A program made the position numbers and the translations under genes. DNA of 25,887 nucleotides from IMG/VR virus record IMGVR_UViG_3300046557_000219, positions 1 to 25,887 of that record; one strand, written 5' to 3'. Under the pieces are notes generated by a model. The model did not search any database. It saw nothing but the letters and a program-made list of their open reading frames with translations, and was not told the origin of the DNA. This DNA is from a virus. Shown in pieces: positions 253 through 25,887 of this stretch (the first letter of the stretch is position 1; each line of letters starts with the position of its first letter).

Positions 253-1241
253 TGTACACGATCCGCGTACGAAACGTTCACTCCGCTCTGCCCACTGGCA
301 TCGCCTATCTGGAGACCGAAGGCATCGAGCGCGAGAGCCGCAACGGCCCAGTGCGGATGTTTCCGGAGCCGGTAGCCACCCGGTACGAGAAGCCCACAGA
401 GCGGGTCATCTTCTGGCCGGAGCGCGACGCCAACCCATTCTTCCACCTGTACGAGAGCCTGTGGATGCTTGCTGGCAAGCGTGACGTCGCCTCAGTGGCG
501 CACTACGTCAAGCGCATGGAAACTTTCTCCGACGACGGCAAGACGTTCCACGGCGCCTACGGCTACCGCTGGCGTCGCTGGTTCAAGCTGGACCAGATCG
601 AGGTGATCATCCACCAGCTGGCAGTCAACAGCGACGACCGCCGCTGTGTCATGCAGATGTGGGACACGCGAGCCGACCTCGGCAAGGAAGGCAAGGACTT
701 CCCCTGCAACATCAGCGTGGTGTTCGCGGTCAACCATCGGCGCGAGCTCGACATGACCGTCTTCAACCGCTCCAACGACATGATCTGGGGTGCCTACGGC
801 GCCAACGCGGTGCACTTCAGCGTGCTGCAGGAGTACATCGCCCTCTCCCTGGGCTTGCTCGTCGGCGCCTATGAGCAGGTCTCCACCAATTTCCACGCCT
901 ACCACAGCACGCTTGACCCGCTCAAGCCGCTGGCGTGCCGCATCGAGGGGAACCCCTACGGCAATGGGTCAGTGTCTCCCTACGCCCTCTGGAACAACCT
1001 AGACGAGAGCAAGGCCATGTTCGACCTGGACCTCGCGGTCTACATGGACAAGGGGCCGATCACCGGGTTCCAGACCCGCTTCTTCCGTCGGGTGGTCAAC
1101 CCGATGCACGCGGCACATGCCTCGTACAAGAAGAAAGACTATGACGCGGCGCGCGACAACCTGCTGCAATGCAGCGCGACGGACTGGCGGAAAGCAGCGA
1201 TCGAATGGATCAATCGGAGAGAACAAAATGCACGGCGTTGA
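252..1241 (+). CDS. Thymidylate synthase family protein (phage type)
   Basis: Predicted to methylate dUMP to dTMP with methylenetetrahydrofolate. The 329-residue protein has the family's active-site landmarks: the phosphate-binding pair R130-R131 (DDRRCVMQMWD), the nucleophile C152 in FPCNIS, the RS-x-D block (R173, S174, D176), N185 at the position that reads the pyrimidine in dUMP-specific enzymes, and H215-x-Y217. The usual PCH is PCN here, and one extra residue lies between the RSxD block and N185. Asparagine rather than aspartate at that position argues for dUMP over dCMP. The alternative is a dUMP hydroxymethylase from the same fold, which cannot be excluded by reading. It is coupled to the upstream gene by TGATG and overlaps the downstream HD gene by 14 nt. 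Confidence 0.9.
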   Translation: MYTIRVRNVHSALPTGIAYLETEGIERESRNGPVRMFPEPVATRYEKPTERVIFWPERDANPFFHLYESLWMLAGKRDVASVAHYVKRMETFSDDGKTFHGAYGYRWRRWFKLDQIEVIIHQLAVNSDDRRCVMQMWDTRADLGKEGKDFPCNISVVFAVNHRRELDMTVFNRSNDMIWGAYGANAVHFSVLQEYIALSLGLLVGAYEQVSTNFHAYHSTLDPLKPLACRIEGNPYGNGSVSPYALWNNLDESKAMFDLDLAVYMDKGPITGFQTRFFRRVVNPMHAAHASYKKKDYDAARDNLLQCSATDWRKAAIEWINRREQNARR

Positions 1242-1785
1242 CGTCAAGACGGTCGCCCACGCGCTCATTCAAAGCCGTTCCGGCGGACGGGTGGAGCGCT
1301 GTCATGGCCTCCCTCACCACGGCACCTACAGCAACGCAACCCATCAGTGGGGTGTCGCCATGCTGATGCACTACCTCTGGCCGCTGGACTTCCCCCGGCT
1401 GGCGCTGGCCTGTCTCACCCACGACGTGCCCGAGGCCTGGGTTGGCGACATCCCGGCACCGACCTGCCGCTACACCCCTGGGCTCAAGGACACCCTGGGC
1501 GTCGTGGAGGGCCGGATCAACAAGTCCATGCTGCTGCCGGCAGAGGACGAGCTCGACCCGCTCGACTACGCCAAGCTGAAGTGTTGCGACCGGCTGGAGT
1601 TCTGGCTCTGGTGCGTCGAGCAGGAGCTCTACGGCAACCTGTTCGCCAAGGAGGGCCGCAAGGAGATCGAGCGCTACTTCACTGAGGTTCCGCTGCTGCC
1701 TGAAGCCCAGGCGCTGTGGTTCGAGCTGCGCTCGCAGGATTGTCTGCCGATCCAGGCAGGCGTTATGAAGGCCGCTTTCGGGTGA
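1228..1785 (+). CDS. HD-domain nucleotide hydrolase, YfbR-like
   Basis: A 185-residue HD-superfamily phosphohydrolase. Metal-binding residues are visible: H39, the H65-D66 pair in LTHDVPEAWVGDIP, and a late D121 in KLKCCDRLE. The block HD-x2-E-x4-GDIP-x-P is characteristic of the YfbR/5'-deoxynucleotidase branch, which removes phosphate from deoxynucleoside monophosphates. The start is the ATG after CGGAGAGAACAAA. A longer open frame upstream lies inside the thymidylate synthase gene and is rejected. Lying between TS and dCMP deaminase genes, it most likely shapes the dNMP pool during infection. Its exact substrate cannot be read from sequence. Confidence 0.85.
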   Translation: MHGVDVKTVAHALIQSRSGGRVERCHGLPHHGTYSNATHQWGVAMLMHYLWPLDFPRLALACLTHDVPEAWVGDIPAPTCRYTPGLKDTLGVVEGRINKSMLLPAEDELDPLDYAKLKCCDRLEFWLWCVEQELYGNLFAKEGRKEIERYFTEVPLLPEAQALWFELRSQDCLPIQAGVMKAAFG

Positions 1786-2381: not shown

Positions 2382-2808
2382 GCTCCACTACGTCGTGTTC
2401 AAGTTTACGACCCGTAGCGCGGCCGACAGCTTTCGAGAGATGGTTGCGGCCGACTACGACGGTCTCTGCGGCGAACACGAGGTGCGCTCAGGCTACTCGG
2501 TGCTGCCCAAGCACCAGACCCGGTGTGGCAAGCTGATGCTCGAAGCGATGCTTCCCGGCCGGGTCTATCACTACGAAGACGTGGCGGCGATGGTTGAAGC
2601 CTACTCGCCAGCCACGATCAAGGGCTACCTCTCCGCCATGGTGCTCGAAGGCACCCTCAAAAACATCGGCCCCGGAACATACAGCAAGCCACATGACACA
2701 ACTCCCCCTGTTTGCCCCGACCACGACGTGGAGACCGCCGTCGATGGAGACCTTGCCCGACTGGAGCAGGGCCAAGCGTGTGGCTGTGGATGTGGAGACG
2801 AGGGATGA
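2350..2808 (+). CDS. Hypothetical protein with winged-helix-like middle region
   Basis: It starts at a GTG preceded by GGGAGG six bases upstream and encodes 152 residues. Residues 60-115 (LMLEAMLPGRVYHYEDVAAM onward, then PATIKGYLSAMVLEGTL) look like a small winged-helix module. The C-terminal 38 residues end in a Cys-Gly run (CGCGCGDEG) and overlap the first 116 nt of the polymerase gene in another frame. That is unusually long for this genome, so the tail may be unconserved read-through rather than a functional segment. No function is assigned. Confidence 0.6.
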   Translation: MARKLVPEQVELHYVVFKFTTRSAADSFREMVAADYDGLCGEHEVRSGYSVLPKHQTRCGKLMLEAMLPGRVYHYEDVAAMVEAYSPATIKGYLSAMVLEGTLKNIGPGTYSKPHDTTPPVCPDHDVETAVDGDLARLEQGQACGCGCGDEG

Positions 2809-4666
2809 TAGCCTTACGACCCTGGGCATTGGCACTCGTCGCGGCGCTCACATTGTGGGTTATGCATTCGCAATTGAAGACGGACCTAAGCATTACCTGC
2901 CGGTTCGGCACCAAGGCGGAGACAATCTCGACGTTGACCAGTGTCGGCGTTACATGCAGGATCAGGCCAAGAGATTTCGAGGAGACTTGGTCGGGGCTCA
3001 CCTCTCGTATGATATGGAGCATCTAGCCTGCGAGGGCGTCGAGTACAGCCGTGACGTGAAGTGGCGCGACGTGCAGGTGGCCGAGCCGCTGATTGACGAG
3101 CTCCAGGACCGCTACAGCCTCAAGGAAATTCTCAGCCGCTACAACCTGCCGGGTAAGGACGAGAGCGAGCTCGTTGCCGCCGCGCGCGAGTACGGGGTCG
3201 ATCCGAAGAAGGGCCTGTGGAAGCTGCCCGGCCGCTTCGTTGGGCGTTACGGCGAGGCCGACGTGGAGCGCCCGCTCCAGCTGCTCCGCAAGCAAGAGCG
3301 GAAGATTGACGATGAAGACCTGTGGGACATTTGGAACCTCGAGACTGATGTGCTCCCTGTGCTCGTACGGATGCGGATGCGTGGCGTGCGCATCGACTTC
3401 GACAAGCTCGAACAAATTGAGACGTGGTCACTCGCCCAGGAAAAGGAAGCGCTGGACAAGGTTCGGCACGAGACCGGCATCCGCATCGCTGTTGGCGACG
3501 TTTGGAAGGCTGAGGCCCTAGCACCAGCCATCGAGCACCTCGGGGTCGAGCTCCAGTACACCTCCAAGGGCAAGGTGTCCGTCAAGAAGGACATCCTGGC
3601 CGACATCAAGCACCCGGTGGCCGACGCCATCGCCTGGGCGCGCAAGGTCAACAAGCTGCGCACCACCTTCGCTGCCTCGATCCGCCGCTACGCGGTCAAC
3701 GGCCGCATCCACTGCACCTTCAACCAGATCGCGCGCGAGGACGACGACCTGAACCAAGGCGCCGCTGGCGACGTGCGTGGCGCTCGTTACGGTCGGCTCT
3801 CGTGCGTCGACCCCAACATGCAACAACAGCCCAGCCGTGACGAGTTTGCCAAGGAGTGGCGCTCGATCTACATCCCCGAGGAGGACACGGAGTGGTGCTC
3901 GAACGACTACAGCCAGCAGGAGCCGCGCTGGACGACCCATTTCGCAGCCGTCAAGGGCTGTAACTTCGAGGGCGCCGCTGCGGCCTGTGCTGAGTACCAC
4001 GCCAACCCGCTGCTGGACAACCATGACTTCATGGCCAAGCTGACCGGCCTGAAGCGGAAGTACGCCAAGAACATCTTCCTCGGCCTGTGCTACGGTGAAG
4101 GTGGTGCCAAGCTTGCACGCGACCTGGGCTTGGCCACCCGTTGGTGCTTGAAGACCGGCCGGGGACGCGACCGCATCACCGAGTACTACTCGGAACACGC
4201 TGCAGCGATCGCCAAGCGCCAGGAGCGCGGTGACGGCTTCATCTTCGAGACCGCTGGCGAAGAAGCGCAGAGCATCATCGACGCCTTCGACGATCGTGCG
4301 CCCTACATTCGGCAGCTGGCCTCGTTCGCCTCGGAGCGCGCTCAGAAGAACGGCTTCATCCGGACGGCCGGTGGTCGGGTGCTCCACTTCCCGCTGAAGC
4401 ATGACGGCACGTACGACTGGACCCACAAGGCGCTCAACCGCCTCATCCAGGGCACCTCGGCCGATCAGGTCAAGAAGTCGCTGGTGGAGCTCGACAAGCG
4501 TGGGCATTTCCTGCAGCTGCAAGTTCACGATGAAATCGCGGCCTCGGTTCGGGATAAAGAAGAAGGGTACGCAATCGCGGAAGTCATGCGAAACATTATG
4601 CCAGCGCTCGTCCCCTTCCGCGTGGACAGCGAGTTTGGCAAGAGCTGGGGAGACAGCATGTCATGA
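2693..4666 (+). CDS. Family A DNA polymerase with 3'-5' exonuclease domain
   Basis: The phage replicative polymerase, 657 residues. The N-terminal proofreading domain shows Exo I (D33, E35 in VAVDVETRDD), Exo II (D107 in GAHLSYDMEH) and Exo III (YGEAD, ending D190). The polymerase domain has motif A (NDYSQQEPR, D405), the O-helix or motif B (RKYAKNIFLGLCYG, residues 455-468) and motif C (VHDEI, H612-D613). There is no 5'-3' exonuclease domain. Aligned to E. coli Pol I, R754 and K758 are kept, but Phe762 is Leu463. No clear ribosome-binding site precedes the ATG. It is preferred over the internal ATG at 2744 because a QLPLF-x-P...W-x-PP...LPDW...AKRV opening is, from memory, usual for homologues. 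Confidence 0.95.
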   Translation: MTQLPLFAPTTTWRPPSMETLPDWSRAKRVAVDVETRDDSLTTLGIGTRRGAHIVGYAFAIEDGPKHYLPVRHQGGDNLDVDQCRRYMQDQAKRFRGDLVGAHLSYDMEHLACEGVEYSRDVKWRDVQVAEPLIDELQDRYSLKEILSRYNLPGKDESELVAAAREYGVDPKKGLWKLPGRFVGRYGEADVERPLQLLRKQERKIDDEDLWDIWNLETDVLPVLVRMRMRGVRIDFDKLEQIETWSLAQEKEALDKVRHETGIRIAVGDVWKAEALAPAIEHLGVELQYTSKGKVSVKKDILADIKHPVADAIAWARKVNKLRTTFAASIRRYAVNGRIHCTFNQIAREDDDLNQGAAGDVRGARYGRLSCVDPNMQQQPSRDEFAKEWRSIYIPEEDTEWCSNDYSQQEPRWTTHFAAVKGCNFEGAAAACAEYHANPLLDNHDFMAKLTGLKRKYAKNIFLGLCYGEGGAKLARDLGLATRWCLKTGRGRDRITEYYSEHAAAIAKRQERGDGFIFETAGEEAQSIIDAFDDRAPYIRQLASFASERAQKNGFIRTAGGRVLHFPLKHDGTYDWTHKALNRLIQGTSADQVKKSLVELDKRGHFLQLQVHDEIAASVRDKEEGYAIAEVMRNIMPALVPFRVDSEFGKSWGDSMS

Positions 4667-12190: not shown

Positions 12191-12756
12191 TGTTTAAGTT
12201 TGATGTAATGCTGGACCTTGAGACGATGGGCAAAGGTCCCACGGCAGCGATCATCCAGATCGGCGCCTGCCAGTTCAACGAGCGCGAGATCACCCATCGG
12301 TTCTGCTGCAACGTGGCGTTGCAGTCCAGCGTGGCCTATGGCATGACCACGGACGAGGACACGGTGGATTGGTGGCGCGGCCGACAGGGCACCGCCTCTG
12401 CGTTCAAGGGTGCTTCCCATCCGCTGCCCAAGGCGATGCTGGCTTTCACCTCCTGGCTCGCTGGGCTTCCCGGCTTCCACGAGGAGGGCACGCTCTGGTC
12501 CAAGGGGCCTGCCTTCGACGCGGCCATCCTGGAGCACGCCAACCGGCTGCTCGGCCACGACGCGGCGCCCTGGCACTACCGCAAGGCTCGGGACCAGCGC
12601 ACCCTGGAGCAGACGGCCGAGGCCTTGGGCTACGTCAAGCCTAACTGGCCTGAGCCGAGCCACGACGCGCTGCTGGACGCGATGGACCAGTCGATCCAGT
12701 GTCAGGATGCGTGGAAGTTCATCAAGGCCCAGGTCAAGCCGGTGGTGTCCTCGTGA
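12190..12756 (+). CDS. DnaQ-like 3'-5' exonuclease
   Basis: A 188-residue exonuclease of the DEDD superfamily. Exo I is MLDLET (D9, E11), Exo II is around D110 in KGPAFDAAILEHA, and Exo III is SHDALLDAMDQ with H158 and D163, making it the DEDDh type. The layout (LDLETMGKGPTAAIIQIGA, then a long linker and WSKGPAFD) resembles the stand-alone phage exonucleases related to the Rv2179c family rather than a polymerase subunit. It may degrade RNA or single-stranded DNA; the substrate cannot be read. It is coupled to the next gene by GTGA. Confidence 0.88.
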   Translation: MFKFDVMLDLETMGKGPTAAIIQIGACQFNEREITHRFCCNVALQSSVAYGMTTDEDTVDWWRGRQGTASAFKGASHPLPKAMLAFTSWLAGLPGFHEEGTLWSKGPAFDAAILEHANRLLGHDAAPWHYRKARDQRTLEQTAEALGYVKPNWPEPSHDALLDAMDQSIQCQDAWKFIKAQVKPVVSS

Positions 12757-13193
12757 AGCTGTATCTTGCAGGGCCGCTGTTCACCTTCGGCGACATTGAA
12801 CAGAACCTCCAGCTGGCCGAGGAGCTCCGGGAGTTCGGGTACGAGTGCTTCCTGCCCCAGGAGCAGGAGACCAACGTCCGGCCGGTCTCAGCTGAGGCCA
12901 TCTTCAACACTGACGTTGCAGGCGTCGACTGGTGCGACGTGATTGTCGCCTGCATGGACGGCCCCGACCCGGACAGCGGCACCTGCTGGGAGCTCGGCTA
13001 CGGTCACGCCAAGGGCAAGCCCTCGGTGCTGTACCGCACTGACTTCCGCTCGGCCTGTGGTGACTTCGACGGCACGCCCTTCAACCTGATGATGGCCGTT
13101 CCCGCCAAGTCATACGTCCAGTATCGCGGCAAGCGGATGCGCGAGCTGGCGGTGCTGTTGCACGACGCGCTGCGGAGGCTCGCGCCATGCTGA
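12753..13193 (+). CDS. Nucleoside 2-deoxyribosyltransferase family protein
   Basis: A 146-residue protein from GTG in a GTGA overlap with the exonuclease. It opens with KLYLAGPLF, has ADVIVA-like CDVIVACMDGPDPDSGTCWE with D69, D74 and the probable nucleophile E80, then LGYGHAKGKPSVLYRTDFR. This is the nucleoside 2-deoxyribosyltransferase pattern (base exchange or hydrolysis of deoxyribonucleosides or nucleotides). It fits a salvage or dNTP-remodelling role alongside TS and dCMP deaminase. A hydrolase specialised on a nucleotide or modified nucleotide is an alternative. Confidence 0.85.
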   Translation: MKLYLAGPLFTFGDIEQNLQLAEELREFGYECFLPQEQETNVRPVSAEAIFNTDVAGVDWCDVIVACMDGPDPDSGTCWELGYGHAKGKPSVLYRTDFRSACGDFDGTPFNLMMAVPAKSYVQYRGKRMRELAVLLHDALRRLAPC

Positions 13194-14795: not shown

Positions 14796-14846
14796 GGGGT
14801 CAGCTCTCGATGCCCCCATCCCAGGCTGACCCCGTTACCCCTTTTT
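14796..14846 (+). terminator. Candidate intrinsic terminator
   Basis: GGGGTCAGC (14796-14804) pairs perfectly with GCTGACCCC (14825-14833). Five T residues (14842-14846) follow eight bases after the stem. The 20-nt loop and the gap before the T-run make it imperfect, but its place directly after the 14519 gene supports termination. Confidence 0.5.
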
Positions 14847-14875
14847 CAGTAACCAACCATTTTCGGAGGACTGAC

Positions 14876-15193
14876 ATGAAACGCATTGCACTCATGGCCG
14901 CCTTGGCGGTTTGCCTAGCCTCCCCGGCCCATGCGGGCCATTATCATCGCTATCAATTCGACAACACGTTCATTCCGCCTCACTGGCTGCTCGACCGTGG
15001 GCCTCGGGTGATTGACGTCCCCGAGTACACCCCGGCCCCAGAGCAGAGCTCGCCCTCGCTGGCCATTCCGTTCCATGCGGAGACCAACGAGGAGGCTGCA
15101 GCCAAGGCGCGGACCCAGGCGCGGCTTTGCGCCCCGGTTCGGCTCTACACTGACGACGGCCTCATCCTGCACCGACCCACACAGTGTAGGTAG
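14876..15193 (+). CDS. Exported small protein with signal peptide
   Basis: A 105-residue protein with a classic Sec signal peptide: KR, a hydrophobic core (IALMAALAVCLASPA) and an AHA|G cleavage site near residue 20. The mature part starts GHYHRYQFDNTF and has two cysteines (near residues 84 and 104) that could form a disulfide. CGGAGGA precedes the ATG. It is flanked by terminator-like hairpins on both sides, suggesting an independent unit. Periplasmic or envelope function is inferred, and the family is unknown. Confidence 0.7.
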   Translation: MKRIALMAALAVCLASPAHAGHYHRYQFDNTFIPPHWLLDRGPRVIDVPEYTPAPEQSSPSLAIPFHAETNEEAAAKARTQARLCAPVRLYTDDGLILHRPTQCR

Positions 15194-15238: not shown

Positions 15239-15272
15239 GGCCGCTGGGGCTCCCCGTCCCAGCGGCCCTTTT
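15239..15272 (+). terminator. Intrinsic terminator
   Basis: GGCCGCTGGG (15239-15248) pairs perfectly over 10 bp with CCCAGCGGCC (15258-15267), with a 9-nt loop and a TTTT run at 15269-15272. It lies after the exported-protein gene and is the strongest plus-strand terminator in the window. Confidence 0.75.
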
Positions 15273-15295: not shown

Positions 15296-15457
15296 ATGCA
15301 CAAGCTTGATTGGAGGGGGCTGGTGGCCTATTACGGCAGCGCGGCCCTTATGCTCACCCTGGGCGCCTGGGCTTGCCAGCTGGTCCCCGGTCGGGTGCTA
15401 GCCCTCGCCGCGCTGCTGTGGGTCGCCGCCTTCCTGGGCGTGCTCACCGAGGGCTAG
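15296..15457 (+). CDS. Small two-helix membrane protein
   Basis: A 53-residue protein from ATG at 15296 with GAGGAG upstream. It reads as two transmembrane helices, about residues 9-29 (LVAYYGSAALMLTLGAWAC onward) and 33-50 (GRVLALAALLWVAAFLGV), joined by a short polar turn. Third codon positions are almost all G or C, which supports coding. Its size and topology would suit a small holin-like or envelope protein, but no lysis gene is visible beside it. Its 3' end overlaps a minus-strand frame. Confidence 0.6.
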   Translation: MHKLDWRGLVAYYGSAALMLTLGAWACQLVPGRVLALAALLWVAAFLGVLTEG

Positions 15458-15562
15458 GCCCTCAAAGGCCAACCCGAGCTGGCCTGAGCGCACCTTGGCC
15501 TCTGCACGAGCGGTGAGCTCGCGCAAGGTCCGGTGCAGCTCAATGTTGATGTCGTCAAACAC
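15398..15562 (-). CDS. Hypothetical helical protein, possible frameshifted continuation of the 15665 frame
   Basis: A 54-residue frame from GTG at 15562. The first 38 residues (FDDINIELHRTLRELTARAE onward) look like a real amphipathic helical protein, and third positions are GC-rich. The GTG overlaps the stop of the preceding 36-residue frame. Together they read as one protein with a +1 shift at the GTTTGAC junction, so this may be a programmed frameshift, a mutation, or two coupled genes. The last 20 residues overlap the membrane protein gene antisense. Confidence 0.4.
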   Translation of the reverse strand: MFDDINIELHRTLRELTARAEAKVRSGQLGLAFEGLALGEHAQEGGDPQQRGEG

Positions 15563-15665
15563 CCCGGATTGCCTTGACGATATCATTGCCGCTCTGCGGC
15601 TGGCGCACTGGCGGTTTGGGCTTCGCGCTGAAGCCAAGGGAGATTGAGAAAGGCAGCTTAGACAT
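15555..15665 (-). CDS. Hypothetical 36-residue protein
   Basis: A short frame with GGAGA seven bases before its ATG on the minus strand, 43 nt downstream of the fatty acid hydroxylase gene and probably in its operon. It reads SKLPFSISLGFSAKPKPPVR and ends NDIVKAIRGV. It stops at a TGA preceded by GTT and overlaps the next frame by 8 nt. It may be the N-terminal part of a longer protein. Confidence 0.45.
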   Translation of the reverse strand: MSKLPFSISLGFSAKPKPPVRQPQSGNDIVKAIRGV

Positions 15666-15707: not shown

Positions 15708-16220
15708 TTAACGTTTCGTTACTTCCTTGTAGGTGCCGAACAGCAGGTCCCCGAGCGGGCACATCAGGTTGTAGTTGAAGGCCCAGCCCTTGTGGTGGAG
15801 CTCGTGTCGCAGGGCTATGGGACCAGTGAGCGTGCCGTTGTGGATCAGGTGGTGGGTGACGATGTAGGTCATGTAGCCACCCAGGAAGCCGACCGCCCAG
15901 GAGGAGCCGAAGTGGGCGCCTAGGAGCAGGCAGGAGGCCGAGCCGACCGCGAACAGCGCCACTGGAGCGAGACCGGGGGTTGGCATGCCGGTCGGATCGA
16001 ACGGGTGATGGTGATGCTTGACATGCGGCCACCAGTAAGGCGAGCCCTTGGTGTGGAACACCCACCGGTGCAGCACGTACTCGAAGAACACCCAGCTGAG
16101 ATAGCCAGCGAACACGAAGCTGAGCACGGTGCCGTCCGAGAGCGGCCACGCATAGCAGGCGTACAGCGCCATGAGCGCGGGAACCACGAAGAAGTCTAGC
16201 CAGTAAAGGATTGCGGGCAC
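15708..16220 (-). CDS. Fatty acid hydroxylase / sterol desaturase family membrane enzyme
   Basis: An integral membrane di-iron oxygenase of the fatty-acid-hydroxylase family, 170 residues. The histidine boxes are clear: HRWVFH (H51-H56), HVKHHHH (H66, H69-H72), HHLIH (H123-H127) and HELHH (H139-H143). They are interleaved with hydrophobic helices, about 7-25, 30-50 and 85-122. Family members hydroxylate or desaturate lipids, sterols or carotenoids, so this protein could modify host membrane or lipid A acyl chains. The GTG at 16220 has AAGGA at ideal spacing and is preferred to the ATG at 16271. It runs opposite to the flanking phage genes, as expected of a moron. The substrate is not readable. 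Confidence 0.9.
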   Translation of the reverse strand: MPAILYWLDFFVVPALMALYACYAWPLSDGTVLSFVFAGYLSWVFFEYVLHRWVFHTKGSPYWWPHVKHHHHPFDPTGMPTPGLAPVALFAVGSASCLLLGAHFGSSWAVGFLGGYMTYIVTHHLIHNGTLTGPIALRHELHHKGWAFNYNLMCPLGDLLFGTYKEVTKR

Positions 16221-16285
16221 GGGAAAATTCCTTGTTCGGTTTCGGGAGAAAGTGTTCCCGTACACATACAAGGAATTTGCCCGTG
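16218..16285. repeat. 18-bp inverted repeat at divergent translation starts
   Basis: CACGGGAAAATTCCTTGT (16218-16235) and ACAAGGAATTTGCCCGTG (16268-16285) match as inverted repeats at 17 of 18 positions, 32 bp apart. Each arm contains the AAGGA ribosome-binding site and the GTG start of one divergent gene (16220 minus, 16283 plus). A smaller nested pair, CGGGA and TCCCG, sits in the spacer. Confidence 0.85.
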
Positions 16286-17932
16286 GCTAAATCGATCCCG
16301 AGTGACGACGTGCTTGCTGAACGCCTCCAGGCCTTTCACGCGGCCGGTGACAATATGACCGCTGCTGCTCGAACGTTGGGCATCCACCGTGACACGCTGC
16401 GCAAGTCGATCGAGGACGCCAAGAAGCTGGGGCTCATTCGCGAGCGCAACGGCAAGCTGGAGGCACTGGAGACCACGCCGTGGGAGCAACCCGCCAAGGG
16501 CAAGGTCAAGCGCTACCTCTGCACCTCTGCACAGAACGACACCGTCGTCAACGAGGCATGGTGGAACAACCTGCAGGCGATCGCCATCCACTACGACGCC
16601 ACGCTGCTGGTTGCAGGCCTGATGTACAACAAGGACGCCTTCGCCAACAAGGCGATGCAGAAGCGGCCGAAGGATGACGCGGTGCTCGGCGCTGGCGAAG
16701 CGTGGGAGCGCATGTTCGACCCCAAGGTGCGTGAGTACCTCGTGGAGGACCGCATGGACCTCGCACCGCGCCTCACCTTCTGTGCCGAGCTGAACATCAT
16801 GCCGACCGCGCGTCGCCCGCTCTCTGGGCTTGAGAGCTACACCTACCGCAAGAGCACCATCGTACCGCACACGACCATCGCGCTGAAGAGCGTCCCCGGC
16901 ATGAAGAGCGAGGGTGTGAAGCTGCTGTACACCACCGGCGCTTGTACCCAGCGCAACTACATTCAGCGCAAGGAAGGCTTCCGAGCAGAGCACTTCCACG
17001 CCTACTCCGCCCTGCTCGTTGAGGTAGACCACGATGGCCACTGGTGGTGTCGGCATATTGAGCAGGGAAGCGATGGCACGGCTTGTGACCTCGCCCTCGT
17101 TTTCAAAGGAGGAAAGCTGGTTAAAGACAATGGCCGCGTTGCCAACATCTGTTGGGGTGACGTCCACGCCACCAAGCTCGATGCAGCCACCGCTGAAGCC
17201 GGATGGCTCGGAGACGGTAATATGCTTGACACGCTCCGTCCGTATTCCCAGCACGTCCACGACCTGCTCGACGCCAGCCCCTTTGGGCACCATACACGAA
17301 AAGATCCGTTCGAGAGCTATCGAGCGTATCACCGCAATGATCGACGAAGCATGTCTGGGGAGCTCCGGGGCACTGCCCAGGTGGCAGCAGCGATGCAACG
17401 AGACTGGTGCAGAACCGTCGCCGTCAACAGCAATCACGACCGCCACCTTGGACGAGCTCTATGCGAAATTGACTGGCGGGAGGACCCGGAAAACGCTGAA
17501 GTCATCCTGGCTCTCACAAGCCGGGTACTCAAGGCGCTGCGAACCGATGACGCTACTTACAACCTGATCGAGGACGCCATACGAGAATTCGCTCCGGTCG
17601 CGTTGGACAAGATGGAGTTCCTGCGTGAAGACGCCAGCGACGTCATCTTGCGCCACCTGGACGGGGGAATTGAATGCGGTCTGCACGGGGATAGAGGAGC
17701 TAATGGAGCTCGCGGTACCCCGATGGGCATCGCGAAAGCCGCTCGGAAGATCAACATGGCAGACAAGCACACGGCCGAGATTGTCGATCACGTCTACGTC
17801 GCAGGCGTCTCTGGCAAACTGGACATGCGCTACAACAAGGGCCTCAGCTCATGGACGCACGCGCACATCGTGACCTACAACAACGGGTGCCGGACGATAG
17901 TGTCGGTGTACGACGGCCGGTGGAGAGCCTGA
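16283..17932 (+). CDS. T5 A1-like protein: HTH plus calcineurin-like phosphoesterase
   Basis: A 549-residue protein from GTG with AAGGA upstream. Residues 8-50 are a helix-turn-helix (MTAAARTLGIHRDTLRKSIE). The rest has the metal-ligand blocks of a calcineurin-like phosphoesterase: GDVHATKLD (D293, H295), NSNHDRHL (N384, H385, D386), and a glycine-rich GLHGDRGANGARG (H468, D470), followed by DKHTAEI (H496) and VYVAG. The combination resembles phage T5 A1, implicated in host DNA breakdown and early DNA transfer; this resemblance is from recall. The likely role is a nuclease or phosphodiesterase acting early in infection. It diverges from the lipid hydroxylase gene. Confidence 0.75.
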   Translation: MAKSIPSDDVLAERLQAFHAAGDNMTAAARTLGIHRDTLRKSIEDAKKLGLIRERNGKLEALETTPWEQPAKGKVKRYLCTSAQNDTVVNEAWWNNLQAIAIHYDATLLVAGLMYNKDAFANKAMQKRPKDDAVLGAGEAWERMFDPKVREYLVEDRMDLAPRLTFCAELNIMPTARRPLSGLESYTYRKSTIVPHTTIALKSVPGMKSEGVKLLYTTGACTQRNYIQRKEGFRAEHFHAYSALLVEVDHDGHWWCRHIEQGSDGTACDLALVFKGGKLVKDNGRVANICWGDVHATKLDAATAEAGWLGDGNMLDTLRPYSQHVHDLLDASPFGHHTRKDPFESYRAYHRNDRRSMSGELRGTAQVAAAMQRDWCRTVAVNSNHDRHLGRALCEIDWREDPENAEVILALTSRVLKALRTDDATYNLIEDAIREFAPVALDKMEFLREDASDVILRHLDGGIECGLHGDRGANGARGTPMGIAKAARKINMADKHTAEIVDHVYVAGVSGKLDMRYNKGLSSWTHAHIVTYNNGCRTIVSVYDGRWRA

Positions 17933-19023: not shown

Positions 19024-20550
19024 TTAAAGTGTGCTGGCGAGTGCGAATGGGTTGGTACCCGGCTGAGTGACCGGGTCGGTGTTCTTGGCCCACGTCGACG
19101 TGTTGTACGAGTACAGACGCGGCGAGACCGTGTTTTGGAAGCCAACGAACAGCGCCGAGCCATCCGCTTTGAAGGCCAGCGCTCGCACCTGGGCGGTCGG
19201 CAGGGTTGCAGGCGCCGCGATATAGGTGAGCGTGTGGGCAGCAGCGTTGAGTGAGTAGACCCAGAGGAACGGGGTGCCGTTGGTTCCGAGCGCAATCTTG
19301 CTGCTGTCAGGCGAAATGGCAAGCACATTCCCGAGCGACGAGACTGAACCGCTGGGCATGGTGGCTGGATCAGCCAGCTTGGCCCACGTGTCAGTGCGGT
19401 AAACGATGAAGGCGTTGGAAGCGTCCGCCATCGCTAGGTGGTTGCCGTCCGGGCTCCAGGCCAAGCCACGCACCGTGGCCACTGGCTGAGTGGCAGGCGA
19501 GGTGATCAGAGCTCCGGTGGAAGCATTGTAGATGCTCAGGAAGGAGCTGCTCATACAGCCCAGGGCAATCTTGCTGCCGTCGGGGCTCCAGACAGCCTGC
19601 TGCACTGCACGCCCAGGGTTGGGGGCTGTGACCGTGGTCCAGGTGGAGGTGTTGTACACCCAAACGAAAGGCGAGACGGTGTTGTCAATCACCATCAGCT
19701 TGCTGCCGTCGGGCGAGAATTGCAGCTTGACGATGTTGCTCCAGGCCGGGGGCGAGGCCGGGCCTGTCACCTTGACCGGAGCACCGGACGTCATGTCATA
19801 GATCAGCAGCGTGCTCGGCGTGGCCACTGCCGTGAAGCTGCTGCTGATGTCAGCGGCCTGCACCAGCGTGGTCGGGATGGTGGCCGGGTCGCTGATCTTG
19901 GTGAGCGAGCTGTCAAGCCAGCGTACGAACGGGCTGGCGTTGTCGCTCTCCACCAGGAATTTGGGAGCAGCAGCGTGGTTCAAGGTGTTGGACTGCGAGC
20001 TGCCGAGCGCCATGGAGGCAGTGAGGAAGCGGATGCGCTGAATGGCAGCGGCCTCGCTGAACCCGAGCCCCATATTGACGGACAGCTGCCGAATGCGCTG
20101 AATGGCTGCGGCCTCGCTGAACCCGAGCTGCATGTTGACGCTGAGGTCGACACCTGCCGTGAGGTGGACCGCTGCGGCCTCGTTGAAGCCGAGTGCCATC
20201 ATGACGTTGAGCGCAACCACGCGGTCGACGATCGGTGGTGGGGACATACCCAGGCCGAAGTCGAAGGCAGCGGTGAGCAGACGGATGCGCTGCAGCTCCA
20301 GCACGTCCATGCCGAAACCTGCGCTGTGGAAGGTCGGATCAAGATAGCGGATGCGCTGGAGCGTCAGCCCCATGTTGAAGCCTTGCGACAAGATCGGCTG
20401 GATGCCGACCAAGCCGCTGGTGCCCTCGTCACGGATGTTGCCCTTGCGCACCCACTGCGGGATGCCATTGACACGCTCGTACAGCCAGAGGTCTTGGTTC
20501 TCATTCTGGATGTAGAATTGACCGAGGTAGGGCCGACCGCTAAACGGCAT
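19024..20550 (-). CDS. Tail protein with 20-residue repeats and WD40-like beta-propeller
   Basis: A 508-residue protein. Residues 1-45 (GQFYIQNENQDLWLYERV onward) look like a virion anchoring segment. Residues 55-190 hold degenerate repeats, the clearest being LSVNMQLGFSEAAAIQRIRQ followed directly by LSVNMGLGFSEAAAIQRIRF. Residues 205-508 are a WD40/YVTN-like propeller of about six or seven blades, each with a form of WSPDGSKIALG and a strand ending in VYNTSTW. It is probably a host-contact or decoration tail protein, but the receptor target is unknown. The ATG overlaps the preceding stop as TGATG. Such propellers are uncommon in phage particles. Confidence 0.85.
   Translation of the reverse strand: MPFSGRPYLGQFYIQNENQDLWLYERVNGIPQWVRKGNIRDEGTSGLVGIQPILSQGFNMGLTLQRIRYLDPTFHSAGFGMDVLELQRIRLLTAAFDFGLGMSPPPIVDRVVALNVMMALGFNEAAAVHLTAGVDLSVNMQLGFSEAAAIQRIRQLSVNMGLGFSEAAAIQRIRFLTASMALGSSQSNTLNHAAAPKFLVESDNASPFVRWLDSSLTKISDPATIPTTLVQAADISSSFTAVATPSTLLIYDMTSGAPVKVTGPASPPAWSNIVKLQFSPDGSKLMVIDNTVSPFVWVYNTSTWTTVTAPNPGRAVQQAVWSPDGSKIALGCMSSSFLSIYNASTGALITSPATQPVATVRGLAWSPDGNHLAMADASNAFIVYRTDTWAKLADPATMPSGSVSSLGNVLAISPDSSKIALGTNGTPFLWVYSLNAAAHTLTYIAAPATLPTAQVRALAFKADGSALFVGFQNTVSPRLYSYNTSTWAKNTDPVTQPGTNPFALASTL
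20026..20145 (-). repeat. Tandem 60-bp coding repeat
   Basis: Two adjacent 60-bp units (20086-20145 and 20026-20085) encode 20-residue copies differing at only two residues. The DNA is also close to identical through GCGGCCTCGCTGAACCCGAG on the plus strand. More divergent copies flank both sides. This indicates recent unit duplication. Confidence 0.8.
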
Positions 20551-22180: not shown

Positions 22181-23754
22181 GCGAGCCCGGCACATACACA
22201 CCGACGGCCGACGAGGAGCGCGAGTTCCTCCAGGCCCTCGAACAGTCACGCATCGAGGCCGCGAAGGTCCCCGTCAAGGTCGTCAACGGCAAGATCGTTG
22301 CGTGGTGTCCACAGGACGGTTCGCAGGTCGACTTCCTTGCCTGCCGTCTGCTCGAATGCCTGTTCCATGGCACGCGCGGTCCTGGTAAGACGGACAGCCT
22401 GCTGATGGCCTTCGCCATGCACGTTGGCAAAGGCTACGGCGCCGCATGGCGTGGTATCATTTTCCGTCAGACCTATCCCCAGCTGGCCGACGTTCAGGCC
22501 AAGTCGGAGAAGTGGTTCAGGCAAATCTTCCCTGCTGCCAAGTTCAACAAGACCAAGATGCAGTGGGAGTGGCCGACGGGTGAGGTGCTGATGTTCCGGC
22601 ACATGAACTCGCCCTCGGACTATTGGAACTACCACGGCCATGAGTATCCGTTCATCGGCTGGGAGGAGCTCACCAACTGGCCGACCGACGAGTGCTACAA
22701 GTCAATGTTCTCGTGCTGCCGGTGCTCGACCCCTGGCGTGCCGCGCATGATCCGCTCGACCACCAACCCCTATGGCGTTGGCCACAACTGGGTCAAGGCA
22801 CGTTGGCGTCTGCATGGTCGCTGGTGGGAGACGATCGTCATCACCGACGCCAAGGACAGCGAAGGCCGAGCTGAGCCGGGTCGCGCTGCCATCCATGGAC
22901 ACATTGACGAGAACAAGATACTTCTCGAGGCCGACCCCAACTACAAGCAGACCATCATCGCCTCGGCCGCCAACCCTGCGATGGCGAAGGCGTGGCTGCA
23001 CGGCAGCTGGAACATCGTCGCTGGCGGCATGTTCGGTGACGTGTGGAACCCGACCATCCACCTCGTGCGGCCGTTCATCATCCCGTCCTCCTGGGCTTTG
23101 GACCGGGCGTTCGACTGGGGTTCGAGCAAGCCCTTCAGCGTGGGCTGGTACGCTGAGAGTGATGGCAGTGACTTCAAGGACGGGCTCGGCCGCTGGCGCA
23201 GCTCCGTACGAGGCGACCTGTACCGCATCAGGGAATGGTATGGCTGCACGCAGAAGCCGAACGAGGGTCTGCAGATGCTGGCCACCGAGATCGCACGCGG
23301 CATCGTCGAGCGCGAGATACAGTGGGGCATCCACGGCCGGGTGAAGGCGGGACCAGCTGACAACAGCATCTTCGACGTGCAGAACGGCATGTGCATCGCC
23401 GACGACATGGCGCGCAAGGTGCGCCTCGACGACGGCCAGGAGTACAAGGGCATCGAATGGGAGCGCGCCAACAAGACCCCAGGCTCACGCAAGACGGGCT
23501 GGGAGCAGATGCGCAAGATGTTCAAGGACGCGCTGCCCAACAAGGATGCGAGGCCCAGGGAGAACCCTGGCCTGTTCGTGTTTGACGACTACAACCCGCA
23601 CTGGGTGCGCTGCGTGCCTGTCCTTCCACGTGACGAGAAGGACATGGACGACGTCGACACCAAGGCCGAAGACCACAACGGTGACGAGACGCGCTACCGT
23701 GTGCGGGAAGCGGGAACCAGAGCGCGCTCGGCCAGCCACGTCGGCCTATACTGA
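22177..23754 (+). CDS. terL: Terminase large subunit
   Basis: The packaging motor ATPase and headful or cos nuclease, 525 residues from GTG in a GTGA overlap with terS. The ATPase has Walker A GTRGPGKT (65-72) and Walker B FIGWEEL (159-165). The C-terminal RNase H-like nuclease shows acidic positions D313 in AFDWGSSKPF, D395 in GPADNSIFD and D503 in EDHNGDETRY. It pairs with TerS and docks on the portal encoded 49 nt downstream. The order terS-terL-portal is standard. Confidence 0.95.
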   Translation: MSEPGTYTPTADEEREFLQALEQSRIEAAKVPVKVVNGKIVAWCPQDGSQVDFLACRLLECLFHGTRGPGKTDSLLMAFAMHVGKGYGAAWRGIIFRQTYPQLADVQAKSEKWFRQIFPAAKFNKTKMQWEWPTGEVLMFRHMNSPSDYWNYHGHEYPFIGWEELTNWPTDECYKSMFSCCRCSTPGVPRMIRSTTNPYGVGHNWVKARWRLHGRWWETIVITDAKDSEGRAEPGRAAIHGHIDENKILLEADPNYKQTIIASAANPAMAKAWLHGSWNIVAGGMFGDVWNPTIHLVRPFIIPSSWALDRAFDWGSSKPFSVGWYAESDGSDFKDGLGRWRSSVRGDLYRIREWYGCTQKPNEGLQMLATEIARGIVEREIQWGIHGRVKAGPADNSIFDVQNGMCIADDMARKVRLDDGQEYKGIEWERANKTPGSRKTGWEQMRKMFKDALPNKDARPRENPGLFVFDDYNPHWVRCVPVLPRDEKDMDDVDTKAEDHNGDETRYRVREAGTRARSASHVGLY

Positions 23755-23802
23755 TTTGCCACCAACGAGAGTTGATCAACAGTCGCCATAAAGGACACGA
23801 TC

Positions 23803-25443
23803 ATGACCGCAGCATTGACCTCACAGCACCCGCTCTACAAGCTGTTCACGCACCGTTGGGAGACGATGCGGGACACGTATGCTGGTGAGGAAGCGGTGAA
23901 GGAGCGCGGGGAGAAATACCTCAAGCCCACCTCCGGCATGGTCGTCGACGGCATGAACCCTGGTCAGCGCGGCTACGCTGCCTATCAGGCGTACCGGTCG
24001 CGTGCGGTGTTCCACGACTTCGTCAAGGACGGTGTCGAGTACTACATCGGCATGATGTACCAGAAGCCGCCCTCCATCAATCTTCCCGCGAAGCTGGAGC
24101 CGATGCGCAAGTGCGCGACGCTGCAGCACGAGGGGCTCGAACAGCTCCTCCGCAAGATCAACGAACAGCAGCTGGTCACCGGGCGCTTCGGCCTGATGTT
24201 GGACCTTCCTGAAAACCCGATCGTGACCCCTGAGCGACCGCTGCTGCCCTACATCGCGACCTACAACGGTGAGGCCATCACCAACTGGGACAGCGGCACG
24301 CGCGACGAGATCGACGTGCCCAAGCTCAACCTCGTGGTGCTGAACGAGAGCGGCTACAAGCGCGTCAGCCAGTTCGAGTGGAAGTGGATGCAGGCCTACC
24401 GCGTGCTCGTGCTCGGCGACGTCGAGAAGGACGAGGCCCAGGGCACCTACCTCCAAGCGCTGTACAGCGGTGACAGCGACCTGACCTTTGACCCTGGGCG
24501 TCTGATGGCACCCAACATGATGGGCAAGACCCTGGACGAAATCCCGTTCGTGTTCGTGAACGCCCAGGACAACCTGCCGACCCCAGACTATCCGCCGCTC
24601 CAGGGCTTGGCCAACATCGCGCTGGCCATCTACCGGGGCGAGGCCGACTACCGGCAGAACCTGTTCATGCAGGGTCAGGACACGCTGGTGGTTATTGGAG
24701 GCAAGGAAGATGACACTTTCCGGACTGGTGCAGGGTCTGTTATCAACCTGCGTCCTGGACAGGGCGTTGACGCCAAGTTCGTTGGCGTTTCTTCAACTGG
24801 CCTCGCAGAGCAGCGTCAAGCTCTCGAGAACGACAAGGTGGCCGCGCGCAACCGCTCCGGCTCCCTCATCGACACCCGCTCCAAGGATAAGGAAAGCGGC
24901 GAGGCGCTCGCCACGCGAGTTGCGGCTCAGGCCGCTACCCTGAACCAGATCGGCTACGCAGGAGCGCAGGCCCTGGAGCAGCTGCTGAAGTGGGCAGCGA
25001 AGTGGGCAGGCGCCAACCCCGAGGAAGTCGAGGTCAAGGCCAACAACGAGTACAGCGAGGAGCAGTTCCTTGCGGCCGACCTGCAGGCGCTGGTTGCTGC
25101 GAAGAACCAGGGTGCGCCGCTGGCCTGGGAGACCATTCACGAGATCATGCTGGAGCGCGGCATGACCCAGCTGTCCTACGAAGAGGAGATGGCGAAGATC
25201 GAAGCCGAAGGGCCGTCCATCGTTGGCACCGACGCGGGTGGCAACCCGGTCGACGACCTGGGCCGCTCGCTCGACCCGCTCACCATGCAGCCGACCGATG
25301 GTCCGGCGCCGAAGAAGCCGGTCAGCGAGAACAACGCACCTCCGGAGGACGGCACCGCCGCGAAACCGAAGGGCTCGAAGGTCAGTAAGGGATTGGCAGC
25401 GCAGAAGAGCAGGATTAAGCCAAAGCCCGCTGCGAAGAAGTAA
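23803..25443 (+). CDS. Portal protein (DUF4055 family)
   Basis: A 546-residue protein beginning after AAAGGA. The opening WETMRDTYAGEEAVKERGEK and YL, then VFHDFVKDGVEYYIGMMYQK, a middle IPFVFVNAQDN and ANIALAIYRGEADYRQNLFM, and the helical region DKESGEALATRVAAQAATLN are typical of the DUF4055 group, which occupies the portal position in many phages. The last 90 residues are Pro/Lys/Ala-rich and probably disordered. The portal would form the dodecameric vertex through which DNA is pumped. Placement after terL supports the call. Confidence 0.88.
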   Translation: MTAALTSQHPLYKLFTHRWETMRDTYAGEEAVKERGEKYLKPTSGMVVDGMNPGQRGYAAYQAYRSRAVFHDFVKDGVEYYIGMMYQKPPSINLPAKLEPMRKCATLQHEGLEQLLRKINEQQLVTGRFGLMLDLPENPIVTPERPLLPYIATYNGEAITNWDSGTRDEIDVPKLNLVVLNESGYKRVSQFEWKWMQAYRVLVLGDVEKDEAQGTYLQALYSGDSDLTFDPGRLMAPNMMGKTLDEIPFVFVNAQDNLPTPDYPPLQGLANIALAIYRGEADYRQNLFMQGQDTLVVIGGKEDDTFRTGAGSVINLRPGQGVDAKFVGVSSTGLAEQRQALENDKVAARNRSGSLIDTRSKDKESGEALATRVAAQAATLNQIGYAGAQALEQLLKWAAKWAGANPEEVEVKANNEYSEEQFLAADLQALVAAKNQGAPLAWETIHEIMLERGMTQLSYEEEMAKIEAEGPSIVGTDAGGNPVDDLGRSLDPLTMQPTDGPAPKKPVSENNAPPEDGTAAKPKGSKVSKGLAAQKSRIKPKPAAKK

Positions 25444-25457
25444 CAGGAAGGAACCAC

Positions 25458-25646
25458 ATGAAGTATCGACTGGTAATGGACGTCACGTTCGACACCGACA
25501 AGCCGGTGACCTTGATGGAAGTCAAGGGCACCGTCGGTCAGGTGCTCGAGACGCTTGACGGCATGGACAACCCGCTGGGGCACCTGGACGACGAAAGCGA
25601 TGCCACGTCCAAGGCGCTGTTCAGCATCACGCAGGTGGAGGGCTGA
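25458..25646 (+). CDS. Small structural-module protein, first tandem paralogue
   Basis: A 62-residue protein with AGGAAGGA before its ATG, 14 nt after the portal gene. It reads MKYRLVMDVTFDTDKPVTLM, a helix (GQVLETLDGMDN), then PLGHLDDESD and a final strand (ALFSITQVEG), a probable beta-alpha-beta fold. The next gene shares the same start, DV-x2-DT opening and NPL/DPL-x3-DD pattern, so they are likely tandem duplicates. Function unknown. Confidence 0.65.
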   Translation: MKYRLVMDVTFDTDKPVTLMEVKGTVGQVLETLDGMDNPLGHLDDESDATSKALFSITQVEG

Positions 25647-25649
25647 GCC

Positions 25650-25887
25650 TTGAAGTATCGCATGACCCTCGTGGTCGACGTCGAGACCGACAACACCATC
25701 CAGCCCTTCACCGCCAGTGGCGGCTTCGATGCCGTCATGGAAGCGATGGGCTCGCTCCAGGACCCGCTGAACGATGCCAAGGACCATCAGGTCGTCGCCT
25801 CGGTGACCTTCGGCCCCGTCGGTGGCATCAACCCGCCACAGGCGCTCCACGGCGAGCGCGTCGCGGCGCGCGGTCGCCACAACGGCA
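25650..25887 (+). CDS. Paralogue of the preceding small protein, cut by the window end
   Basis: Partial gene starting at TTG with GGAGG eight bases upstream. It reads KYRMTLVVDVETDNTIQPFT, then FDAVMEAMGSLQDPLNDAKD and VVASVTFG, matching the preceding gene in order. It continues with GPVGGINPPQALHG, which the shorter copy lacks. No stop occurs before position 25887, so the protein is longer than 78 residues. Confidence 0.6.
   Translation, partial: MKYRMTLVVDVETDNTIQPFTASGGFDAVMEAMGSLQDPLNDAKDHQVVASVTFGPVGGINPPQALHGERVAARGRHNG

Follow-up and report, generated by a model that had tools for sequence, protein, structure and literature searches.

An apparently intact FA2H/Scs7-like member of the fatty acid hydroxylase family encoded at a conserved locus in two related phages

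Results

A phage gene for a fatty acid hydroxylase family member

The window, that is, the whole stretch of DNA analyzed here, is a linear 25,887-bp fragment from an IMG/VR virus record and encodes what appears to be an intact protein of the fatty acid hydroxylase family. We assign a probability of roughly 0.6 to the reading that this protein is a membrane di-iron monooxygenase of the FA2H/Scs7-like type that would hydroxylate an acyl lipid of the host membrane with electrons from the host, and that its gene is a long-resident accessory gene whose product would alter the envelope.

The open reading frame runs on the minus strand from a GTG start at 16220 to a TAA stop at 15708 (15708–16220, 170 residues), and the sequence AAGGA lies about 10 nt ahead of the start. 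The encoded protein matches the Pfam model FA_hydroxylase (PF04116) with an E value of 6.1e-10 and 40.1 bits (gathering cut-off 31), residues 37–163 aligning with positions 2–132 of the 132-position profile. An ortholog in a related phage contig, L002 (IMGVR_UViG_3300044691_000465), also passes this model (58.6 bits), so that both phage proteins lie above the curated cut-off of the family to which the initial annotation had assigned the gene. Neither the PHROGs nor the NCBIfam profiles match the window protein at an E value of 0.1. The AlphaFold2 model, calculated from an alignment only two sequences deep, is poor (pLDDT 55.5), and a Foldseek search with it returned a single, meaningless match (4bpm, E 7.6); a helical membrane protein would fit both the hydropathy peaks and this low-confidence model.

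The protein contains four histidine boxes: HX4H (H51 and H56), HX2HH (H66, H69, and H70), HX3H (H123 and H127), and a second HX2HH (H139, H142, and H143). All 10 histidines are in register with His244, 249, 268, 271, 272, 326, 330, 345, 348, and 349 of yeast Scs7, which we take to be the metal ligands of that enzyme. The boxes are thus intact, as first proposed from the window alone; the same 10 residues are kept in the 44%-identical ortholog and are invariant across both phage proteins and six aligned bacterial relatives. Four such motifs form the two-metal center in the FA2H family (reviewed in PMC10002949).

The pattern of substitution between the two phage genes is the one expected of a gene under protein-level constraint. 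Histidines are conserved at 11 of 14 positions, versus 44% of all positions (hypergeometric P = 0.007), and nucleotide identity falls from the second codon position (0.62) to the first (0.53) to the third (0.44, a value raised by high GC). The curated-profile match, the codon-position pattern, and the syntenic conservation described below together place the match, at the level of sequence, beyond chance.

Relationship to Scs7 and CrtZ

Of the two subgroups compared, FA2H-type and CrtZ-type, profile comparisons indicate that the phage enzyme belongs with the former and is FA2H/Scs7-like. Built from only the two phage proteins, a profile matches Scs7 in the PDB (4zr1 and 4zr0, E values of 7.6e-7 and 1.5e-6), and this match is independent of the choice of bacterial proteins because it was obtained from the phage pair alone; with the bacterial relatives added, the E value for Scs7 is 3.4e-28. 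Against an FA2H-like bacterial profile, the phage proteins reach 79 and 69 bits, whereas a CrtZ profile gives 9.2 bits for the window protein and leaves the other unlisted, although the FA2H-like set was picked by similarity to the phage protein and the comparison with CrtZ is therefore not blind. The CrtZ proteins were gathered from plasmids with a Pantoea CrtZ query, which matched one record at 100%, and the profile was built from the records' own sequences. In the reverse direction, the phage profile scores CrtZ at about 4 bits and six of the seven proteins of the FA2H-like set at 52–73 bits; hhalign gives 99.6% for FA2H-like and 42.8% for CrtZ. The protein also follows Scs7, not CrtZ, in the P-x-D that comes behind its second box and in how its third and fourth boxes are laid out.

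These scores bear directly on the alternative that the enzyme is a carotenoid hydroxylase like CrtZ, or one of the hopanoid/sterol type, and would alter host pigments or polyterpenoids in place of acyl chains. PF04116 includes enzymes of these types, among them the β-carotene hydroxylase CrtZ (PMC10598087), which at about 175 residues is similar in length to the phage protein; however, the near-background scores in both directions rule out CrtZ as the nearest type and, with the Scs7-like motif and box layout, make this alternative unlikely. Of the initial description, the assignment to the fatty acid hydroxylase family stands and is narrowed here to the FA2H/Scs7-like type, and a carotenoid role becomes less likely.

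The domain shared with Scs7 and eukaryotic FA2H, which 2-hydroxylate ceramide fatty acids, spans nearly the whole phage protein, with the 10 aligned metal-site histidines in the same box order. In contrast to those enzymes, the phage protein belongs to a bacterial virus, is only 170 residues long, and has a different C-terminal motif (NxNLxxPLGDLxFGTY versus the common GVTSxxWDxxFGT), so its substrate could differ. It also lacks the fused N-terminal cytochrome b5 domain that is typical of eukaryotic FA2H members, and we therefore refer to it as FA2H-like, not as an FA2H ortholog; the fusion is not typical of the bacterial FA2H-like members seen here either.

The closest cellular relatives found are plasmid genes annotated as "sterol desaturase family" (Novosphingobium, Methylophaga, Acidisoma, and pKLC102), whose FA2H-like products are about 30–35% identical to the phage protein over most of its length and, as in the phage pair, retain all 10 histidines. 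In a small tree with these bacterial relatives, an analysis foreseen in the initial annotation, the two phage proteins group together with support values of 98/97 and no donor lineage was placed; two scans of cellular genome contigs for a donor returned nothing.

A conserved locus in related phages

The L002 contig (62,874 bp) comes from a separate metagenome and carries its hydroxylase gene on the same strand and at the same locus, adjoining the same A1-like gene. The gene order common to the two records comprises an exonuclease, a nucleoside deoxyribosyltransferase-like gene, small genes, a signal-peptide protein, the hydroxylase (minus strand), the A1-like gene, the terminase, and the portal. 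This independent recurrence rules out a chimeric contig at the hydroxylase, an artifact that the initial annotation had named as a concern. Its description of the setting is also borne out: the hydroxylase and a small cassette lie on the minus strand, and the replication, A1, and packaging genes lie on the plus strand.

GC content and synonymous codon use of the hydroxylase gene match those of the phage, which, together with the ortholog at the same locus, indicates that the gene belongs to the phage. The same codon usage and an ortholog of only 44% identity rule out a recent capture from a host. By its strand, its position, and its absence from other relatives the gene is a candidate moron, as had been suggested, but it is kept at the same place in L002. 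In a third relative, L005 (terminase 71% identical), the interval that runs from the equivalent small gene to the terminase lacks both the hydroxylase and the A1-like gene. Phage Simon shows no match to either gene in the stretches compared, and both are absent from the stretch of PaMx11 that was read.

The hydroxylase is separated by a divergent intergenic region of 62 bp (16221–16282, measured between start positions; 55 bp in L002) from the gene for an A1-like DNA transfer protein (phrog_1745; 16283–17932, plus strand). The A1-like proteins of the two records are 67% identical, so the hydroxylase, at 44%, evolves faster than its neighbor while keeping its ligands. An N-terminal helix-turn-helix-like extension, common to L002, precedes the phrog_1745 match, and the nearest relatives of the A1-like protein are from roseophages. 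Downstream of the hydroxylase on the minus strand lie a 36-residue open reading frame (MSKLPFSIS...; 15555–15665), for which neither a Pfam match nor a counterpart in L002 was identified and whose end overlaps with the beginning of the frame that follows, and a conserved frame of 54 residues (VFDDINIELHR...; 15398–15562) similar to L002 5194–5409 (minus strand; BLOSUM62 local score 58, reached by 0 of 5000 shuffles). A consensus scan found no sigma-70-like promoter near the hydroxylase gene, and no promoter or terminator of its own was demonstrated.

Farther along, the plus strand encodes a protein with a signal-peptide-like N terminus (14810–15193), syntenic in L002 (37% identity), followed by a terminator-like hairpin (15239–15267) and a possible hydrophobic frame of 53 residues (15296–15457) weakly similar to a frame of the relative (score reached by 179 of 5000 shuffles). 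The nucleoside 2-deoxyribosyltransferase-like protein (12699–13193, plus strand) matches PF05014 at 90.7 bits and is syntenic in L002 at 57% identity. On the minus strand, a 508-residue protein (19024–20550) with N-terminal repeats (GFSEAAAIQRIR) and a WD40/β-propeller-like C-terminal half is possibly a virion or tail protein.

By its DNA polymerase (62% identical to phage Simon and 54% to PaMx11) and its terminase (55–58% identical to Simon, PaMx28, RDJL3, and Sphaerotilus phage SN1), the phage is placed near Mesyanzhinovviridae-like siphophages; the hosts of the isolate relatives are Pseudomonas, Roseobacter, and Sphaerotilus. The nearest NCBIfam model of the polymerase (2735–4666, plus strand) is the aminoadenine-incorporating DpoZ (281 bits; cut-off 500), and a Z-genome is not supported, since neither the window nor the L002 record has a gene resembling adenylosuccinate synthetase. 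A thymidylate-synthase-like gene and a YfbR-like HD nucleotidase adjoin at 252–1241 and 1117–1785 (plus strand), as in PaMx11, and this pair may belong to base modification. Positions 1–2825 of a contig from another metagenome, L029, match window positions 23062–25887 at about 95–100% in translated comparisons, and that contig reaches about 6 kb past the window on that side. Scanning the window with Rfam and for tRNAs yielded no match.

Rarity among bacterial viruses

The hydroxylase was described at the outset as rare phage cargo, and the searches agree. With two phage and two bacterial seeds, tblastn found no homolog in 50,697 phage records, the PHROGs search gave none, and two motif scans of IMG/VR with the phage form and the common FA2H form returned L002 as the sole further PF04116 carrier, although these three kinds of search are blind to very distant family members. 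The motif matches in IMG/VR contigs L060, L061, L063, L064, and L077–L083 are due to chance, since none holds PF04116. A search of 47 records, many of them short fragments, with the family model found PF04116 only in L002, and other viral scans gave no further ortholog. In the open-licence papers searched, PF04116 is reported in giant viruses, not in phages.

Discussion

The acyl chains of host membrane lipids are the most likely target of the phage enzyme during infection. In the mechanism that we infer, the 10 histidines would hold two metal ions, which would activate O2 so that a hydroxyl group is inserted into an acyl chain. The lipid so modified would belong to the host membrane and would most likely be a ceramide or an amino-acyl lipid. 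A carrier of the host would supply the electrons, as no cytochrome b5 (Cyt-b5) or 2Fe-2S ferredoxin (Fer2) domain was detected in either phage record; since the window is a fragment and L002 is not certified complete, a phage-encoded donor could lie elsewhere. The hydroxylase would be an accessory gene that the phage has kept for a long time, and envelope properties would be altered during infection by the hydroxylated lipid. We regard as tentative a more specific version, in which a tailed-phage lineage has an FA2H-type hydroxylase of its own whose expression diverges from that of an A1-like host-takeover gene. Early in infection, such phages would hydroxylate ceramide or other acyl lipids of a host that is aerobic.

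The surroundings of the bacterial relatives are suggestive with regard to substrate. The Acidisoma gene adjoins glycosyltransferases, an SDR, and an enzyme of the class I/II aminotransferase fold, and the pKLC102 relative occurs as a fusion with a class I SAM methyltransferase and has a fatty acid desaturase in its vicinity; these contexts hint at sphingolipid or modified-acyl pathways and do not determine what the phage enzyme acts on. In myxobacteria, homologs of FA2H function as 2-hydroxylases (PMC10002949).

Two other readings concern what the protein does at the membrane. An enzyme that acts on head groups or on lipid A or ornithine lipids, and thereby blocks adsorption of competing phages, is improbable in our estimation. 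OlsE, a member of the FA_hydroxylase family, acts on ornithine lipids, which favors this reading, whereas 2-hydroxylation of lipid A is known from LpxO, which belongs to a different family. Lipid A as substrate and superinfection exclusion as benefit are possibilities that the present evidence does not support. That envelope lipids can affect adsorption is seen in Caulobacter, in which glycosphingolipids reduce adsorption of phage PhiCr30 (PMC6445935). Still less probable is a loss of catalysis, with the protein a membrane partner or the gene a neutral passenger, as the divergent C-terminal motif and the absence of the gene from L005 and two isolate relatives might suggest, because all 10 ligands are kept while 56% of aligned positions have changed, the frame is open in both phages, and the codon positions show constraint.

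For the favored reading, an acyl-lipid hydroxylase, the nearest viral precedent is provided by the fatty acid desaturases of cyanophages and of sea-ice and cryopeg viruses, for which a role in changing the host membrane has been proposed (PMC7300359). These are likewise membrane di-iron lipid-modifying enzymes of bacterial viruses and share Pfam clan CL0713 with PF04116 (PMC10598087), but they are stearoyl-CoA desaturase-like proteins of PF00487, not PF04116 hydroxylases. PF04116 genes themselves occur in giant viruses of the Mimiviridae and Phycodnaviridae (PMC10598087), but these are large DNA viruses that infect eukaryotes and not tailed phages. Phage lipid desaturases are therefore already known, whereas a phage PF04116 hydroxylase has no counterpart in the literature and collections searched; this cargo was found in the present virus and one relative, and in no other bacterial virus searched.

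The virus may thus chemically change the membrane of its host. A compact FA2H-type enzyme of 170 residues, at one locus in two phages, would offer a simple way to ask whether, and why, phages alter host membrane chemistry through oxygen-dependent hydroxylation, and, if the more specific version above is correct, membrane lipid hydroxylation would be a phage-controlled trait.
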